Origin: Bacillota bacterium
GTDB taxonomy: Bacteria > Eremiobacterota > SpSt-956 > JAKJGF01
NCBI GenBank assembly: GCA_029555925.1
Contig: JAKPQU010000257.1
Span: 1-8,699, forward strand
Direction of reading: 5' to 3'
DNA: 8,699 nt
Made by a program: the position numbers and the translations under genes. Positions 1-7,338 of the stretch are shown here, one piece after another. The notes below the pieces were generated by a model. That model was given only the letters and a program-made list of their open reading frames with translations, was not told where the DNA came from and searched no databases. The first letter of the stretch is position 1, and the number at the start of each line of letters is the position of its first letter.

Positions 1-30
1 CACGCGTCACGCGTTACGCGTCACGACTCA
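1..30. repeat. Heptamer array at left edge
   Basis: Four 7-bp units in register (CACGCGT at 1 and 8, TACGCGT at 15, CACGACT at 22) followed by CA. The array ends 17 bases before the hemC stop codon, on its downstream side. Unit sequence and orientation match the arms of the elements at 2823-2850 and 4885-4919, which also adjoin the 3' end of the preceding gene. The array runs into the window edge, so it is probably the visible arm of a longer composite element continuing to the left. Confidence 0.8.
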
Positions 31-47
31 ATTTTTCATTCCTTACC

Positions 48-1286: not shown

Positions 1287-1303
1287 CGTGACGCGTGACG
1301 CGC
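1287..1303. repeat. Short heptamer array between resB and DUF1844 gene
   Basis: Two exact CGTGACG units (1287-1293 and 1294-1300) and a partial third (CGC). The array lies between the resB stop codon (1315-1317) and the DUF1844 ribosome site (1275-1282). It has the orientation of the left arms of the composite elements at 2698 and 4811, that is, the arm next to the 5' end of the following gene. No hairpin core accompanies it, so it may be a remnant or a minimal form. Confidence 0.75.
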
Positions 1304-1314
1304 GGATTATTATC

Positions 1315-2676
1315 TTACAAAACACTCTGAAGTTCTATCAGATATTTTTTCATTTTATCCAGAAATATTTTATTATATTCTTCCTCTTTACCGGAAAAAC
1401 CTGCATAGAGATTTTTATCAGCATACTTAAACAGTATTCTTATAATTCTCCTGGATGTATAAAAGGTTAACAACATGCCGATCATCATAAGGAAACATCC
1501 GGCATATACCACAGGAACTCCGGGGTCTTCTTTTATCTGAAGACCTGTATATTCTATTACCCTGTTGAATGTAAATTTATACCCTTCAAAATCTCTGGAT
1601 ATCCCTTTCTTAAACAGCCCCAGTTCAACCCATGACGGTTCTTTACCGGTCATAAATTCCCTGCATAGCTGTAATGTCACAGCAGGACTGACAGGGAAAT
1701 AAGACCGGGATTTTACAGTATTTCCATCAATAAACATATCAGGATAAAAATATCCACTTTTAACTATCCAGTCATTAGGAAGAATAAAAAAATTATTACC
1801 ATCTGCAGGTTTCCCGCTATCATCAAGAGGAATAAAATAATCTTCCTTTATTCCGTCAGGATATATAACAGAAAATTCCAGAGCCGTCATTCCCCAGTCT
1901 GCCTGATAGAATGTAACACCTTTATATTCCAGAGGATCATTGACAGATATAGTTTTTTCCAGTATCTTCCTGTTACCTTCCAGAACCTCAAGATCACTGC
2001 AATACTGTTTTATTCTATGATTTTCATATAAATCCAGATGGAAATCTTTAAGTCTTACCTGAAAATTATTATTTCTGTCAGTATAAGTATTCTGCTGTTC
2101 AACCTCTACGAGAGTAACATAATCTTTATAACCTGTAATTCCTCCGTATATGGCTCCTGCGAATATTACAAGAATACTTATATGAATTATAAAAGGCCCC
2201 CATTGTTTTAAATATCCTTTTTCACCATATATATGGACATTACCGTCACTGTCCTTTTCGTGCTTCACATAAAAACCGTTCTGGCAGAGATATTTTAAAA
2301 TTTTATCACATATTTCTGCAGAAGATATTGAGACAGTCATGAAATTTTTATAAAAATCCAAAGGCATGACTGTTTTCTTTCCTTTAATTTTACTGGCTGT
2401 ATGCTCTATGGAACAGATAGTTATATTTATACCTATAATGGCAAGTAATATTCTGTATATAAGGGAGTTATACAGATTATTAACTCCAAGAGTAAGTATG
2501 AGATTATACCAGAAAGGAGAGTACATATGTTGATATATGTCAGTCTGTTCACTTTGAGGTATGAGAGTTCCTGCTATTGATACAATAGCAAGAAGGATTA
2601 TAAAAAAGACAGCAACCTTCATAGAAGTAAAAAACAGCCAGATAGAATCTATAATATTTTTTTTATTATCCTTCAA
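1315..2676 (-). CDS. resB: ResB/Ccs1-like cytochrome c biogenesis protein
   Basis: A membrane protein of 453 residues, the size of ResB/Ccs1 of the System II pathway, which with CcsA/ResC moves heme across the membrane and joins it to apocytochromes c. Visible features are an N-terminal segment SIWLFFTSMKVAVFFIILLA running into GTLIPQ (residues 11-41), typical of ResB; a second membrane segment at about 72-90; a third at about 160-181 (QWGPFIIHISIL) with H165, probably the heme-handling histidine of that helix; a large outside domain at about 182-385 containing VNDPLEYKGVTFYQADWG (245-262), a ResB signature; and a last membrane segment near 387-411 with a basic tail. The start chosen is TTG at 2674-2676, preceded by GGAG at a 7-base gap. 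The frame stays open 43 codons further upstream, but only through repeat DNA. No CcsA partner lies in the window. The di-heme cytochrome gene upstream is a plausible client. Confidence 0.88.
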   Translation of the reverse strand: MKDNKKNIIDSIWLFFTSMKVAVFFIILLAIVSIAGTLIPQSEQTDIYQHMYSPFWYNLILTLGVNNLYNSLIYRILLAIIGINITICSIEHTASKIKGKKTVMPLDFYKNFMTVSISSAEICDKILKYLCQNGFYVKHEKDSDGNVHIYGEKGYLKQWGPFIIHISILVIFAGAIYGGITGYKDYVTLVEVEQQNTYTDRNNNFQVRLKDFHLDLYENHRIKQYCSDLEVLEGNRKILEKTISVNDPLEYKGVTFYQADWGMTALEFSVIYPDGIKEDYFIPLDDSGKPADGNNFFILPNDWIVKSGYFYPDMFIDGNTVKSRSYFPVSPAVTLQLCREFMTGKEPSWVELGLFKKGISRDFEGYKFTFNRVIEYTGLQIKEDPGVPVVYAGCFLMMIGMLLTFYTSRRIIRILFKYADKNLYAGFSGKEEEYNKIFLDKMKKYLIELQSVL

Positions 2677-2687
2677 TATATGACTCC
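2674..2687 (-). promoter_or_regulatory. resB ribosome binding site deciding a TTG start
   Basis: GGAG on the minus strand (2684-2687) is followed by a 7-base spacer and TTG (2674-2676). The next in-frame ATG downstream (residue 19) would cut into the first membrane segment, and the upstream in-frame ATG codons lie inside or beyond the heptamer repeat. TTG is therefore the best-supported start. Confidence 0.7.
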
Positions 2688-2697
2688 ATTCTAAAAT

Positions 2698-2878
2698 CGT
2701 GACACGTAACGCGTGACGCGTGACAGGTGGTTTCGTGATGCGTAATGCGTGATGCATGTTTTCGCCGGTACCGGGTGAACACAGTGGTTCGCCCCTACTA
2801 CTCACTCTTCACTTTTCACTTTTCACGACTCGCGACTCACGACTCACGATTTCTTTTTCACCCTTCACCCTTCACTAT
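2698..2878. repeat. Composite heptamer-armed intergenic element, copy 1
   Basis: The left arm has four units of the CGTGACG/CGTAACG type (2698-2725), then GGTGGTTT, then three units of the CGTGATG/CGTAATG type (2734-2754). The core (2755-2798) holds the perfect palindrome CCGGTACCGG (2765-2774) and a hairpin (2773-2794). The right arm keeps a 7-bp register for eleven units from 2802 to 2878, ten of them starting TCAC or TCGC: TCACTCT, TCACTTT twice, TCACGAC, TCGCGAC, TCACGAC, TCACGAT, a degenerate TTCTTTT, TCACCCT twice and TCACTAT. CGTGA on the left is the reverse complement of TCACG on the right, so the arms form an imperfect inverted repeat. The element fills the space from the resB ribosome site to one base before the peroxidase stop codon. 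A second copy lies at 4811-4922. Confidence 0.88.
2773..2794. repeat. Hairpin in core of element copy 1
   Basis: GGGTGAAC (2773-2780), loop ACAGTG (2781-2786), GTTCGCCC (2787-2794). Seven of eight pairs are Watson-Crick. The fourth is a T-G wobble if the plus strand is the RNA and a C-A mismatch in minus-strand RNA, the direction in which all genes here are transcribed. No T-run follows on either strand, so it is not a standard intrinsic terminator. Confidence 0.75.
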
Positions 2879-2879
2879 T

Positions 2880-3881
2880 TTACATTCTCTTTGTATCAGT
2901 CAGACTCTTCAAAAAACTCACAATAGAATCTGTTTCGCTATCATTAAAATCTTTACCGAGCTGTAAAGCCCCCATGCTTTTCACAGCTTCTTCAATGGTT
3001 TTTATCTTTCCGTCATGATAATAGGGGGCAGTAATGGCAATATTCCTGAGCATAGGTACTTTAAATATAAATTTATCAGCTTTATCTTTTGTTATTTCGT
3101 AACGGCCAGAGTCTGCAGTATTTTCATAAGGTTTTACCACTCCAATTTTCTGATACATATTTCCGCCCAGAAGAGGCCCTGCATGACATGTAATACACCC
3201 GGAGGACATAAACAGTTCCAGTCCCTTCTGTTCATCATCGGTAAGGGCATTATAATTTCCTTTTATAAATTCATCAAAACGATCGGATGTTTTGAAAGTC
3301 CTTTCATAAGAAGCTATTGCTCTGTTAACATTGGCAACAGTAAATGGTTTACTATCTTTCGGAAATGCTTTTTTAAATAAATCACTGTAATCTTTACTCA
3401 ATCTTTCCTTTAATTTTTTCGAAGGATATACCATATGACCTTTTAACTGTTCTTCAAGTGTTGTAGCACGTCCGTCCCAGAACTGTGCAAATTGATAACC
3501 TGCATTGAGTACAGTAGGGGTATTTCTCTTACCCTTTTTACAGGCTGTACCTTCAGAAACAGATAAATTATCAACTCCACCCTTTTTATTATCCACCATA
3601 TGGCAGATGTTACAGGATTCTTTGCCATTATCGGAGAGTTTCTTTTCAAAGTAAAGTTTTTCTCCGAGTCTTACAAGCTCTTCAGTATCTTCATCTTTTC
3701 CCGACATTTGTTCAGGTATGACACCGAATATAGAGGATACCTGTTTTACAAGAATAGCAGGCTCCTTTCCTTTATTTGCAGATGGTTCCGGTTCAGGAGA
3801 ATTCTGTCCGGAAGGCTGACAATTTATTACAAAAACAATAGAAATAAGCAGGAGAAGAGCCAGAGAAAATGTTTTTTTCAT
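2880..3881 (-). CDS. Di-heme cytochrome c peroxidase (CcpA/MauG family), variant
   Basis: An exported 333-residue protein of the bacterial di-heme cytochrome c peroxidase family, which reduces hydrogen peroxide with electrons from small cytochromes. The hydrophobic leader (about 4-20) ends in VINC, a possible but atypical lipobox (Asn before C21), then a Pro/Ser-rich linker. Heme sites are CNICH (90-94) and CITCH (229-233). Other family motifs are RLGEKLYF (71-78), KRNTPTVLNAGY (118-129), FWDGRATTLEEQ (134-145), FKVPMLRNIAITAPYYHDG (273-291) and a closing helix near 313-328. Compared from memory with Pseudomonas peroxidase, the loop histidine (H71 there) is T112 here and the catalytic glutamate (E114) is K155, although Q145 is kept, so activity may differ from a classical peroxidase. 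The ATG start has GGAG six bases upstream. The WG-repeat gene ends 13 bases before it, implying one transcript. Heme attachment should need the System II machinery to which the downstream resB belongs. Confidence 0.9.
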   Translation of the reverse strand: MKKTFSLALLLLISIVFVINCQPSGQNSPEPEPSANKGKEPAILVKQVSSIFGVIPEQMSGKDEDTEELVRLGEKLYFEKKLSDNGKESCNICHMVDNKKGGVDNLSVSEGTACKKGKRNTPTVLNAGYQFAQFWDGRATTLEEQLKGHMVYPSKKLKERLSKDYSDLFKKAFPKDSKPFTVANVNRAIASYERTFKTSDRFDEFIKGNYNALTDDEQKGLELFMSSGCITCHAGPLLGGNMYQKIGVVKPYENTADSGRYEITKDKADKFIFKVPMLRNIAITAPYYHDGKIKTIEEAVKSMGALQLGKDFNDSETDSIVSFLKSLTDTKRM

Positions 3882-3894
3882 AAAAAACTCCTTA

Positions 3895-4791
3895 TTATTT
3901 TTCAGAATTCCATATTATCTTACCGGATTTATCAACATAGCCAGATTTATTATCTCTTACTATGACTGCTCTGCCGTTATGAAAATAATCGGCTCTATCA
4001 AAAGATGGTTTTATCACAACCTTACCTTTAATATCAATATATCCCCAGAGGCCGCCGGTCTTAACGGCAGCCAGTCCTTCCGAAAAACTGCAGGCATCGT
4101 CAAATGCCGGTTTAATTACACTGAAACCGGCACTGTTTATATAGCCGTATTTATCACCCATTCTGATTATAGCCATAGACTGCAAGAAAGCTCTGGCTTC
4201 ATCAAACTGCGGCTCAATAGCCAATGAGCCATGAATATCTACATATCCCCATTTATCATCAACCTTTACGGCAGCAAAACCTTCGGAAAAATTGTAACCG
4301 TAATCAAGGACAGGGGCAAGAATTATCTTTCCTCTTCTGTCTATATAACCATATTTATTACCATTTCTCACAACTGCTATATCGTCATAAAAATCTGAAA
4401 TTGAATCATATTCCGGTTTAATAATAATCTTACCGTGACCGTCTATATAGCCACATTTATCTCCTATCCATACAGGAGCCATACCTTTATATAAATCTCC
4501 TGCTTCATCAAACTGAACTTCACAGATTATATTACCCTTATTATCTATATATCCCCACTTGCTGCCAATTTTTATAGATGCCAATCCTCCGGAGAAATTA
4601 TGTGCTTCATCAAAGATCGGTTTAATAATAATATTTCCATTGCAATCCATATAACCATATTTACTGCCAACTTTTACAGAAGTCAGACCTTCCGCATAAT
4701 CTCCCTGACAGTCAATCATCTCCTGAGAGGATACAGAAATTTTTACAAACAGTAATAGCAGAAACAGGCTGGATAAGATATATTTTATCAT
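3895..4791 (-). CDS. Exported WG-repeat protein
   Basis: A 298-residue protein with an N-terminal signal segment (basic MIKY, hydrophobic residues 5-20, likely cleavage after VSS or nearby), so it is probably periplasmic or outside the cell. The rest is eight tandem WG repeats of 34 residues starting at residues 33, 67, 101, 135, 169, 203, 237 and 271, the last shortened to 28. The consensus is roughly EGLAxVKxGxKxGYIDxxG followed by xIIIKPxFDEAxxF. The WG/YG dipeptide is lost in unit 3 (KCGY) and unit 8 (KSGY). WG-repeat proteins are widespread, and their function is generally unknown; the fold is probably a beta-rich solenoid or propeller for binding. The ATG start has GGAG five bases upstream. 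It is followed after 13 bases by the di-heme peroxidase gene, suggesting joint expression in the same compartment. A binding or scaffold role for that cytochrome is only a guess. Confidence 0.9.
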   Translation of the reverse strand: MIKYILSSLFLLLLFVKISVSSQEMIDCQGDYAEGLTSVKVGSKYGYMDCNGNIIIKPIFDEAHNFSGGLASIKIGSKWGYIDNKGNIICEVQFDEAGDLYKGMAPVWIGDKCGYIDGHGKIIIKPEYDSISDFYDDIAVVRNGNKYGYIDRRGKIILAPVLDYGYNFSEGFAAVKVDDKWGYVDIHGSLAIEPQFDEARAFLQSMAIIRMGDKYGYINSAGFSVIKPAFDDACSFSEGLAAVKTGGLWGYIDIKGKVVIKPSFDRADYFHNGRAVIVRDNKSGYVDKSGKIIWNSEK

Positions 4792-4810
4792 ATATACTCC
4801 TTATAAGAGG

Positions 4811-4922
4811 CGTAACGCGTGACGGGTGGTCAGTGAGCGTAATGCATATTTTCACCGGTACAGGGCGAACACAGTGGTTCGCCCCTACGACTCACAACTC
4901 ACGACTCACGACTCACGACTCA
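4811..4922. repeat. Composite heptamer-armed intergenic element, copy 2
   Basis: The left arm has CGTAACG and CGTGACG (4811-4824), then GGTGGT, a CAGTGAG stretch and CGTAATG (4838-4844). The core at 4845-4888 matches copy 1 (2755-2798) at 40 of 44 positions. The right arm has CTACGAC (4885), TCACAAC (4892) and TCACGAC at 4899, 4906 and 4913, then TCA (4920-4922), which is the cydB stop codon read on the minus strand. The element fills the space between cydB and the ribosome site of the WG-repeat gene (4797-4802). It has the same order and orientation as copy 1 but a shorter right arm, so the arms vary by whole heptamers while the core is conserved. Confidence 0.88.
4863..4884. repeat. Hairpin in core of element copy 2
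   Basis: A perfect 8-bp stem, GGGCGAAC (4863-4870) with GTTCGCCC (4877-4884), and loop ACAGTG. The loop and the 3' arm are identical to copy 1. No T-run follows in either direction, so intrinsic termination is not supported. The adjacent palindrome of copy 1 is broken here by one base (CCGGTACAGG). Confidence 0.8.
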
Positions 4923-5933
4923 ATACACAAGATCCTTTTCTTTTACTTTATCTTTGAAAAGATTGTATACCCAGGTCTGATAGATTATTACAATAGGAAC
5001 AAAAACAAGTGCTACAACAAGCATTATCTTCAGAGTAAGAGGGCTTGATGAAGAATTATATATTGTCAGGCTGAATGAAGGGTTTATGCTTGATGGCAAC
5101 ATACAGGGATAAAGGCCTGTAACACCAAAAAATGTTGCGCTTAATATGGTCAGACATGATGAAAACCATGCTTTCCACCAGGCTTTTTTATGTATGAACA
5201 ATCTTGTTAATATAAGTCCGATAACCGTCAATAAAGGTATAATAAACAGAACCGGCATATGAATATAATTATCAAAGAGCCCTGTAAGTAATTTTGTCAC
5301 AAGCAGAAAAATCAAGGTGACAAGCAGAAGTGTAACCCATAATATTTCCGAGAGACCGGCAGATCTGTTATTAAGCTCTCCTTCTGATTTAATGGCAAGC
5401 CAGAGGGAACCATGAAGCAGAAATAAAAGAAGGAAAAATACTCCACCCAGAAGTCCGTAAGGATTGAGGAGTGTAAAAAGATTTCCTCTGTATATTCCGG
5501 CTCCGTCAATGGGAATACCCTTAAAAATATTTGCAAAAGCTACTCCCAGTAACAGTGCAGGAAGAAAACTACCTGCAACAAGTCCTGTATCCCATATTTT
5601 TTTCCACAGACCATGTTCGAGTTTACCTCTGAACTCAATAGATATGCCTCTGAGTATAAGAGCAAATAAAACCAGCATTAATGCTGAATACATCGAACTA
5701 AACATAACTGAATAGGTCTTCGGAAAGGCAGCAAAGGTAACTCCGCCTGCAGAAATGAGCCATACTTCATTACCATCCCAGAAAGGCCCTATAGAGTTAT
5801 ATATAGTCCTTTTATTTTCCTCGTTTTTAGCCAGAAAGGGCATAAGCGTACCAAGGCCGAGATCAAATCCGTCCAGCATAAAATAAACTGCCCAGAGAAC
5901 TGCCCAGAGAATAAACCATATTGTTTCTAACAT
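4920..5933 (-). CDS. cydB: Cytochrome bd quinol oxidase subunit II
   Basis: The second subunit of cytochrome bd oxidase, the integral membrane complex that oxidises quinol and reduces oxygen to water with high affinity. The 337 residues are the usual subunit length. Family motifs are DGFDLGLG (21-28), GPFWDGNEVWLI (49-60), LRGISIEFR (94-102), GSFLPALLLGVAFAN (121-135), HGSLW in the middle membrane region, and the C-terminal stretch with LYPCMLPSS, TIYNSSSSPLTL and a final membrane helix ending in IIYQTWVY. About nine membrane helices are expected. The ATG at 5931-5933 lies one base after the cydA stop codon, and its ribosome site (AAGGAG) lies inside the end of cydA, so the two are translationally coupled. 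The TGA stop (4920-4922) coincides with the first bases of a heptamer repeat. No cydX-like small gene follows in the 128 bases before the next gene. Confidence 0.97.
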   Translation of the reverse strand: MLETIWFILWAVLWAVYFMLDGFDLGLGTLMPFLAKNEENKRTIYNSIGPFWDGNEVWLISAGGVTFAAFPKTYSVMFSSMYSALMLVLFALILRGISIEFRGKLEHGLWKKIWDTGLVAGSFLPALLLGVAFANIFKGIPIDGAGIYRGNLFTLLNPYGLLGGVFFLLLFLLHGSLWLAIKSEGELNNRSAGLSEILWVTLLLVTLIFLLVTKLLTGLFDNYIHMPVLFIIPLLTVIGLILTRLFIHKKAWWKAWFSSCLTILSATFFGVTGLYPCMLPSSINPSFSLTIYNSSSSPLTLKIMLVVALVFVPIVIIYQTWVYNLFKDKVKEKDLVY

Positions 5934-7273: not shown

Positions 7274-7338
7274 AGCAGACAGCTATCAGTTATCAGCTTT
7301 CAGAAAAGCTGACTGCTGATAGCTGACTGCTGACTGCT
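7274..7338. repeat. Heptamer-armed inverted repeat between rubredoxin and cydA
   Basis: The left arm has units AGCAGAC, AGCTATC, AGTTATC and AGCTTTC (7274-7301). The right arm, in opposite orientation, has AAAAGCT, GACTGCT, GATAGCT, GACTGCT and GACTGCT (7304-7338). The reverse complement of the right arm equals the left arm except for one extra heptamer and a few substitutions. The centre is a tight hairpin, AGCTTT (7295-7300), loop CAGA, AAAGCT (7305-7310). It fills the space between the rubredoxin stop (7344-7346) and the cydA ribosome site (7260s). A transcript crossing it would fold into a long imperfect stem. No T-run follows on the minus strand, so termination is uncertain. The unit sequence is unrelated to the CGTGACG family elsewhere, but the design is the same. 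Confidence 0.85.

Follow-up and report, generated by a model that had tools for sequence, protein, structure and literature searches.

Among the repeats of bacterial intergenic regions, the repetitive extragenic palindromes (REPs) of the GTAG class and the arrays of 7-base units, or heptamers, have been handled separately (Di Nocera 2013, PMC3733652; Rehm 2015, PMC4692102; MacGregor 2015, PMC4679880; statements on these papers refer throughout to the portions of their text that were available). Here we describe a composite repeat that ties the two classes together, present in two copies in a stretch of 8,699 nucleotides from an uncultured bacterium (hereafter the window; contig JAKPQU010000257.1, assembly GCA_029555925.1). 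The view of this host is limited to the one window, from which both copies come.

GTAG REPs carry a GTAG tag beside a short stem-loop, are intergenic, occur near gene 3' ends and are often arranged head-to-head with GTAG on the outside, features that the window element shares (PMC3733652). Most of them seem unassociated with other repeats, and the few exceptions named in the available text do not include heptamers. The window element differs by the truncation of one member of the pair and by an in-register heptad array that continues from the tag side.

Heptamers were described in Xanthomonas as GGGAATC and in Nostoc as GGGGA(C/T)T, mostly intergenic and, in Xanthomonas, also in convergent pairs (70 and 75 in two genomes), with the coding strand used within 50 bp after stop codons and the non-coding strand just before start codons; generally, no link of heptamers to mobile elements was found (PMC4692102). 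The window element has 7-base units, intergenic placement and convergent same-type arms within one gap in both of its copies, whereas the published units have other sequences with G-quadruplex potential and, in the text available, no REP core. The window units are GTGANNN and contain no G-tract of the quadruplex type. The TAACTGA repeats of Beggiatoaceae, cyanobacteria and Bacteroidetes are likewise intergenic direct heptamer repeats with forward-strand stop codons, but they consist of another unit, sit for the most part immediately before start codons in the main genome, and comprise 169 direct sets and one indirect set (PMC4679880).

A preliminary description of this DNA regarded the combined element as one that could not be named. 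This has to be revised, as the core fits the description of GTAG REPs (PMC3733652) and the arms have a published counterpart in the convergent heptamer arrays of Xanthomonas (PMC4692102). No open-access paper describing GTGA-NNN heptads, or a REP fused to heptads, was found, and in our judgment both parts are of known kinds and their ordered, in-step fusion is what is new. It provides a testable rule: the anchor strand points inward, the REP tag lies on the same strand and, in some cases, in the same register. We interpret the element, with a probability of roughly 0.6, as a dispersed non-coding intergenic repeat in which a GTAG-class REP (one intact unit and the probable half of a second) is flanked by slipping arms of GTGA-NNN heptads.

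Anatomy of the two copies

Copy 1 (2699-2875) fills the gap between a MauG-type peroxidase gene and resB, and copy 2 (4812-4923) the gap between cydB and a gene for a WG-repeat protein. At both loci the flanking genes are co-directional, and a stop codon immediately precedes each element. The arms listed below were delimited by reading the sequence, the copy 1 REP by sequence and by the occurrence of the same stem in dispersed REPs, and the copy 2 REP by sequence and fold; the remnants are interpretations, that of copy 1 based on likeness by eye to the inner half of REP pairs in genomes G002-G004.

2699..2755, plus strand: copy 1 left arm, GTRA-NNN units with a degenerate 8-base GTGG unit at 2727
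2757..2766, minus strand: copy 1, probable remnant of a second, opposed REP (spacer-side half; GTAG half missing)
2773..2798, minus strand: copy 1 REP, GTAG at 2795-2798, stem arms 2787-2794 and 2773-2780, 6-base loop 2781-2786
2799..2875, minus strand: copy 1 right arm, eleven GTGA-NNN-type units in the GTAG register
4812..4845, plus strand: copy 2 left arm, units starting at 4812, 4819, 4826 (GTGG), 4833 (6 bases) and 4839
4847..4856, minus strand: copy 2, probable remnant of a second REP, as in copy 1
4863..4888, minus strand: copy 2 REP, GTAG at 4885-4888, stem 4877-4884 with 4863-4870, loop 4871-4876
4889..4923, minus strand: copy 2 right arm, five units in the GTAG register, the outermost containing the cydB stop codon TGA (4920-4922)

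A single composite unit is present at both loci, as the preliminary description had proposed: their 44-bp cores (2755-2798 and 4845-4888) are identical at 40 of 44 positions and are flanked by arms of opposite orientation. On the minus strand the core reads GTAG, GGGCGAAC, CACTGT and GTTCRCCC, followed by a spacer and the remnant, that is, an unpaired GTAG, an 8-base stem and a 6-base loop. The stem pairs at 8 of 8 positions in copy 2 and at 7 of 8 in copy 1, where the single mismatch is an unpaired C-A on the minus strand and a T-G on the plus strand. Judged by tag, stem and loop, the core is a GTAG-class REP. The partial second REP suggests a decayed head-to-head pair (REPIN, a REP doublet); two full opposed REPs are present in neither copy, the left unit being at most a remnant in both.

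The right arm of copy 1 keeps a strict 7-base register through eleven units, ending at the core's GTAG; their minus-strand sequences are GTGAAGG, GTGAAGG, GTGAAAA, AGAAATC, GTGAGTC, GTGAGTC, GCGAGTC, GTGAAAA, GTGAAAA, GTGAAGA and GTGAGTA, leading into GTAGGGG. In copy 2 five units (TTGAGTC, GTGAGTC, GTGAGTC, GTGAGTT, GTGAGTC) lead into the same GTAGGGG. The arms thus vary in unit number and sequence while the core is kept, as previously noted; near the tag the triplets differ between the copies (AAA, AGA, GTA vs GTC, GTT) and the GTGA anchor is unchanged. The earlier claim of phase-locked arms holds for these right arms and not fully for the left ones, each of which breaks step once: units start at 2699, 2706, 2713, 2720, 2727, 2735, 2742 and 2749 in copy 1 (one 8-base step) and at 4812, 4819, 4826, 4833 and 4839 in copy 2 (one 6-base step). 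The GGTGGT motif is a degenerate left-arm unit (GTGGTTTC, GTGGTCA). The GTGA strand of the arms points inward from both sides, with the REP tag within the 7-base register on the right. The longest phased GTRA run in the window has four units, a length never reached in 300 resamplings under a 3-base-context Markov model (maxima of 1 to 3). The arms of copy 1, inspected for terminal inverted repeats of the kind found in miniature inverted-repeat transposable elements (MITEs), are 72% complementary over 36 nucleotides.

For the spread of the REP part the most likely route is the one suggested for other members of the GTAG class, in which a Y1 transposase of the host or an ancestor (REP-associated tyrosine transposase, RAYT, or TnpA-REP) recognizes the tag and hairpin. 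The arms may then gain or lose whole 7-base units by slippage or unequal recombination, and the GTGA anchor would stay fixed either because matching anchors permit re-pairing or because something reads them. In transcripts, GUGA of one arm is predicted to pair with UCAC of the other at 7-base intervals, so that a ladder encloses the REP hairpin shortly after a stop codon; for the host this would most likely have a modest effect on mRNA 3' ends and not amount to essential regulation.

Recurrence of the parts and of their junction

The 12-base REP end GTTCGCCCCTAC matched 91 times in G002, 72 in G003 and 50 in G004, often as opposed pairs with the tag outside, and its reversed control gave 0 to 1 matches in these three genomes. 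Eight of the 16 genomes searched contained the REP end, the five besides G002-G004 with 1 to 4 matches each. Y1 transposases were found in 15 of 16 genomes, so that their mere presence is uninformative. At L285 of G003 a Y1 transposase open reading frame (ORF; Pfam E 2.4e-9) has GTAG REPs of similar design and other stems on both sides; at L288 of the same genome a weaker Y1 match (22.4 bits, cut-off 23; E 1.4e-4) has GTAG REPs, again with other stems, around and inside the ORF.

The junction of the two parts was also found elsewhere. In 297 genomes there are 16 cases, spread over 9 genomes, of the REP end CGCCCCTAC with two or more TCAC units following within 20 bases (reversed control: 3 matches in 3 genomes), as opposed to a single case with two or more GTGA units (reversed control: 3 matches in one genome). 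Twelve of the 16 TCAC junctions, in 6 genomes, were judged by eye to be arrays beside a hairpin, and the remainder (L170, L174, L175, L179) to be chance or minimal cases. The tag lies in the 7-base register at five of 11 junction families (the window, two G159 hairpins, G134 and one G283 locus) against an expectation of 1 in 7 (p 0.013, calculated post hoc on families sorted by eye). By orientation and by this register bias, REP and heptads are coupled.

The G159 junction is enclosed in a MITE, and among related copies of this element the number of heptads adjoining the tag ranges from zero to seven; at least 12 distinct inner forms occur in the first 30 of 51 matches. One hairpin type appears there without heptads (L252, L254, L255) and with several (L256, L268), and a different hairpin bears seven (L251). 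These stretches (L247-L276) contain a MITE family ending in GAGCCTCTTGCAAAA, whose inserts vary among REP hairpins with heptads, another GTAG hairpin and almost nothing. A different combination of hairpin and heptads, GGCCNNNGGCCNNNGACC, occurs in G060, with 25 matches in 800 kb vs 9 for the control in which each word was reversed. The stretches L186-L225 of that genome show, by eye, a dispersed composite built of an octamer left arm, a GGCCGAAGGCC hairpin and heptads of the form GACCGNN, in many cases a short way ahead of a predicted gene. Together with the 12 arrays beside REP ends, the G159 series and the G060 family bear out the expectation, raised from the window alone, that similar architectures recur elsewhere. 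The REP-heptad pattern of the window had no match in genome_contigs. Plasmid or phage origin was considered and rejected: copy 1 against plasmids and copy 2 against phages, the two combinations run, gave no blastn match, a 22-base piece of the core was absent from viral_contigs, and five viral matches to a looser pattern are not composites.

Unit turnover can be followed at the resB junction, where gene callers extend the ResB frame into the left arm because the TCAC strand lacks stop codons. The window frame reads ITKPPVTRHALRVTILE (PPVT-RHALRVT-ILE), and that of P0122 (ResB 87% identical) reads TPPVTILEW, seven residues and hence 21 nucleotides or three units fewer; P0124 (86%) reads NALRVTHYALSVTISEW (NALRVTHYALSVTI) at that position. 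The orthologous junction therefore appears, as deduced from the protein frames, to differ by exactly three units. The open TCAC strand also means that the ResB start sites in databases are probably wrong. The predicted ResB N-termini of the window (2676-2805, minus strand), P0122 and P0124 run into the heptamer arm.

In the predicted fold of the minus-strand transcript of copy 2, GUGA-UCAC helices form a ladder with the REP hairpin as its cap (z -2.71; 4 of 200 shuffled sequences do as well). No Rfam family matched above the gathering threshold in the window, so a known RNA family was set aside.

Several results weigh against the interpretation as a mobile REP with slipping arms. The exact stem GTAGGGGCGAAC occurs in none of the 15 stretches around Y1 matches in G002-G004, and clear GTAG REPs stand beside a Y1 gene only at L285 and L288, with other stems. 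The tag is off register at six of the 11 junction families (G003, G163, two in G195, two in G283). Arm peptides can be read in only two of the four nearest ResB relatives (P0123 begins too late to read the arm and P0125, 76% identical, shows no such peptide), and the comparison was made by protein, not DNA. For the copy 1 transcript the predicted fold is no more stable than expected by chance (z -0.96, 32 of 200 shuffles), and no terminator-like site lies at either element, which also disposes of an intrinsic terminator; on these two grounds no regulatory role is claimed.

The off-register families would also suit a nested accident, in which heptamer arrays and REPs both pile up in a few tolerant gaps and one such gap was simply duplicated to give the window loci. 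It is favored as well by the placement of tracts of at least three GTGA units, 51 of 63 of which are intergenic (gene positions from our own gene caller), and by the report that some REPs lie inside other palindromes (PMC3733652). The 16 to 1 orientation of the junctions is far from random, and the register excess is likewise unexpected for independent parts, so that we regard such an accident as unlikely.

Fixed anchors and convergent orientation

Arrays of fixed anchor and variable triplet are common in the phylum of G002, where (GTGANNN)3GTGA was found in 68 of 198 genomes and its period-8 version in 16; in several of the 198 the triplets change within a single array, and among the matches listed six of the 16 period-8 genomes owe their result to GTGA tetramer microsatellites. 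The reversed control of the period-7 search is not clean, being positive in many genomes too because AGTGANN units fit both the forward and the reversed pattern; the period-8 search is the better control. A further search in the phylum of G007 was positive in two of 14 genomes.

With no anchor imposed, the departures from consensus in 57 distinct period-7 arrays cluster in certain phases (453.1 vs 263.6, standard deviation 17.9; ratio 1.72), 13 arrays reaching p < 0.05 singly; 49 further period-7 arrays sharing an 18-mer with one already counted were excluded. The corresponding ratios for periods 6, 8 and 9 are 1.30, 1.39 and 1.18. In 800 kb of G060 there are 83 period-7 and 52 period-8 arrays, vs 0 and 3 in resampled sequence. 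An anchor that stays fixed while its triplet varies, within arrays and between the two window copies, is what a protein- or RNA-binding platform would require, with a factor contacting GTGA every 7 bases (21 bp being two helical turns) and the triplets left free. Other anchors (CGAC, GACC, CTAG) behave like GTGA in G060, however, so that many factors would be needed, and no protein was identified; we consider this explanation improbable.

With its tandem 7-base units the element belongs to the heptameric simple sequence repeats, which reportedly rank first in abundance among the long simple repeats of many bacteria (Mrazek 2007, as cited in PMC4679880 and PMC4692102). An anchor-plus-triplet unit in a directional layout is a constraint not explained by plain polymerase slippage alone.

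GTGA pairs in other genomes are convergent 20 times and divergent 4 times (19 vs 4, plus 1 vs 0 in G195), in a set of stretches many of which were selected for containing GTGA tracts. The 19 derive from 21 after removal of L143 and L152, duplicates of L233 and L226; L226 and L231 share flanks and may be copies of one locus; counting them once would lower the 20 to 4 to 19 to 4. Same-direction pairs (11 and 10) stand outside the ratio. Among 18 tracts in 222 kb of G195, added as a test, there was one convergent pair and no divergent one; of the 20 stretches taken from it, five had been picked because matches were present. Relative to the gap midpoint the orientation is weak (25 of 39 tracts follow the rule), and in co-directional gaps GTGA lies on the coding strand in 16 cases and on the opposite strand in another 16, so that the rule concerns the gap and not the transcript. 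In Desulfococcaceae bacterium HSG8, 14 GTGA units and 10 opposed units surround about 95 bp (L024, 2339-2603), and no GTAG REP was seen there.

The strand balance also speaks against the proposal that GTGA heptads, which give stops in all three frames on the strand entering a gap, were selected at gene ends as translation insulators. The proposal agrees with the position of the cydB stop codon within the copy 2 array and with several G118 tracts that start within a few bases of a stop codon; yet the CydB end DLVY is kept in five of the five nearest relatives (P0241-P0245), so that this stop position is independent of the array, and the Xanthomonas GGGAATC arrays follow the same reported orientation rule with no stop codon on either strand (PMC4692102), which excludes insulation as a general cause and leaves it very unlikely here.

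Hairpin formation fails to explain the convergent layout as well, because divergent arms would pair equally well. The layout is thus accounted for neither by hairpins nor by stop codons, which is the basis of a speculative reading to which we give very little credence: an enzyme might append 7-base units with a fixed tetramer, in register, to the GTAG tag or, in the general case, to 3' ends exposed where an intergenic site has been opened, two extended ends being then joined. Convergent arms exactly as seen here and in Xanthomonas would result, in a manner reminiscent of telomere fusion; the anchor would then be templated and the triplet prone to error, and the first suspects would be the tag-binding Y1 transposase lineage or a reverse transcriptase.

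Other features of the window

The window carries genes in a row on the minus strand: hemC, a DUF1844 gene, resB, the peroxidase gene, the WG-repeat gene, cydB, cydA and an ODP/flavodoxin gene. The closest named relatives of HemC, ResB and CydB (78, 86 and 93% identity) carry the source label Candidatus Eremiobacterota. Most intergenic gaps of more than about 40 bases contain, by eye, some heptamer array; two of GTGACGC type, read from the sequence in the same way as the arms, are the following.

1..32, minus strand: heptamer array of the type found in the arms, clipped by the window edge, 3' of hemC
1287..1302, plus strand: short GTGACGC array between the DUF1844 gene and resB

A second, CTGA-type heptamer (CAGCTAT... 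and GCTGACT...) forms an inverted pair at 7280-7338, just upstream of cydA. The TGA-bearing strands of this pair point outward, a sense opposite to that of the GTGA arms.

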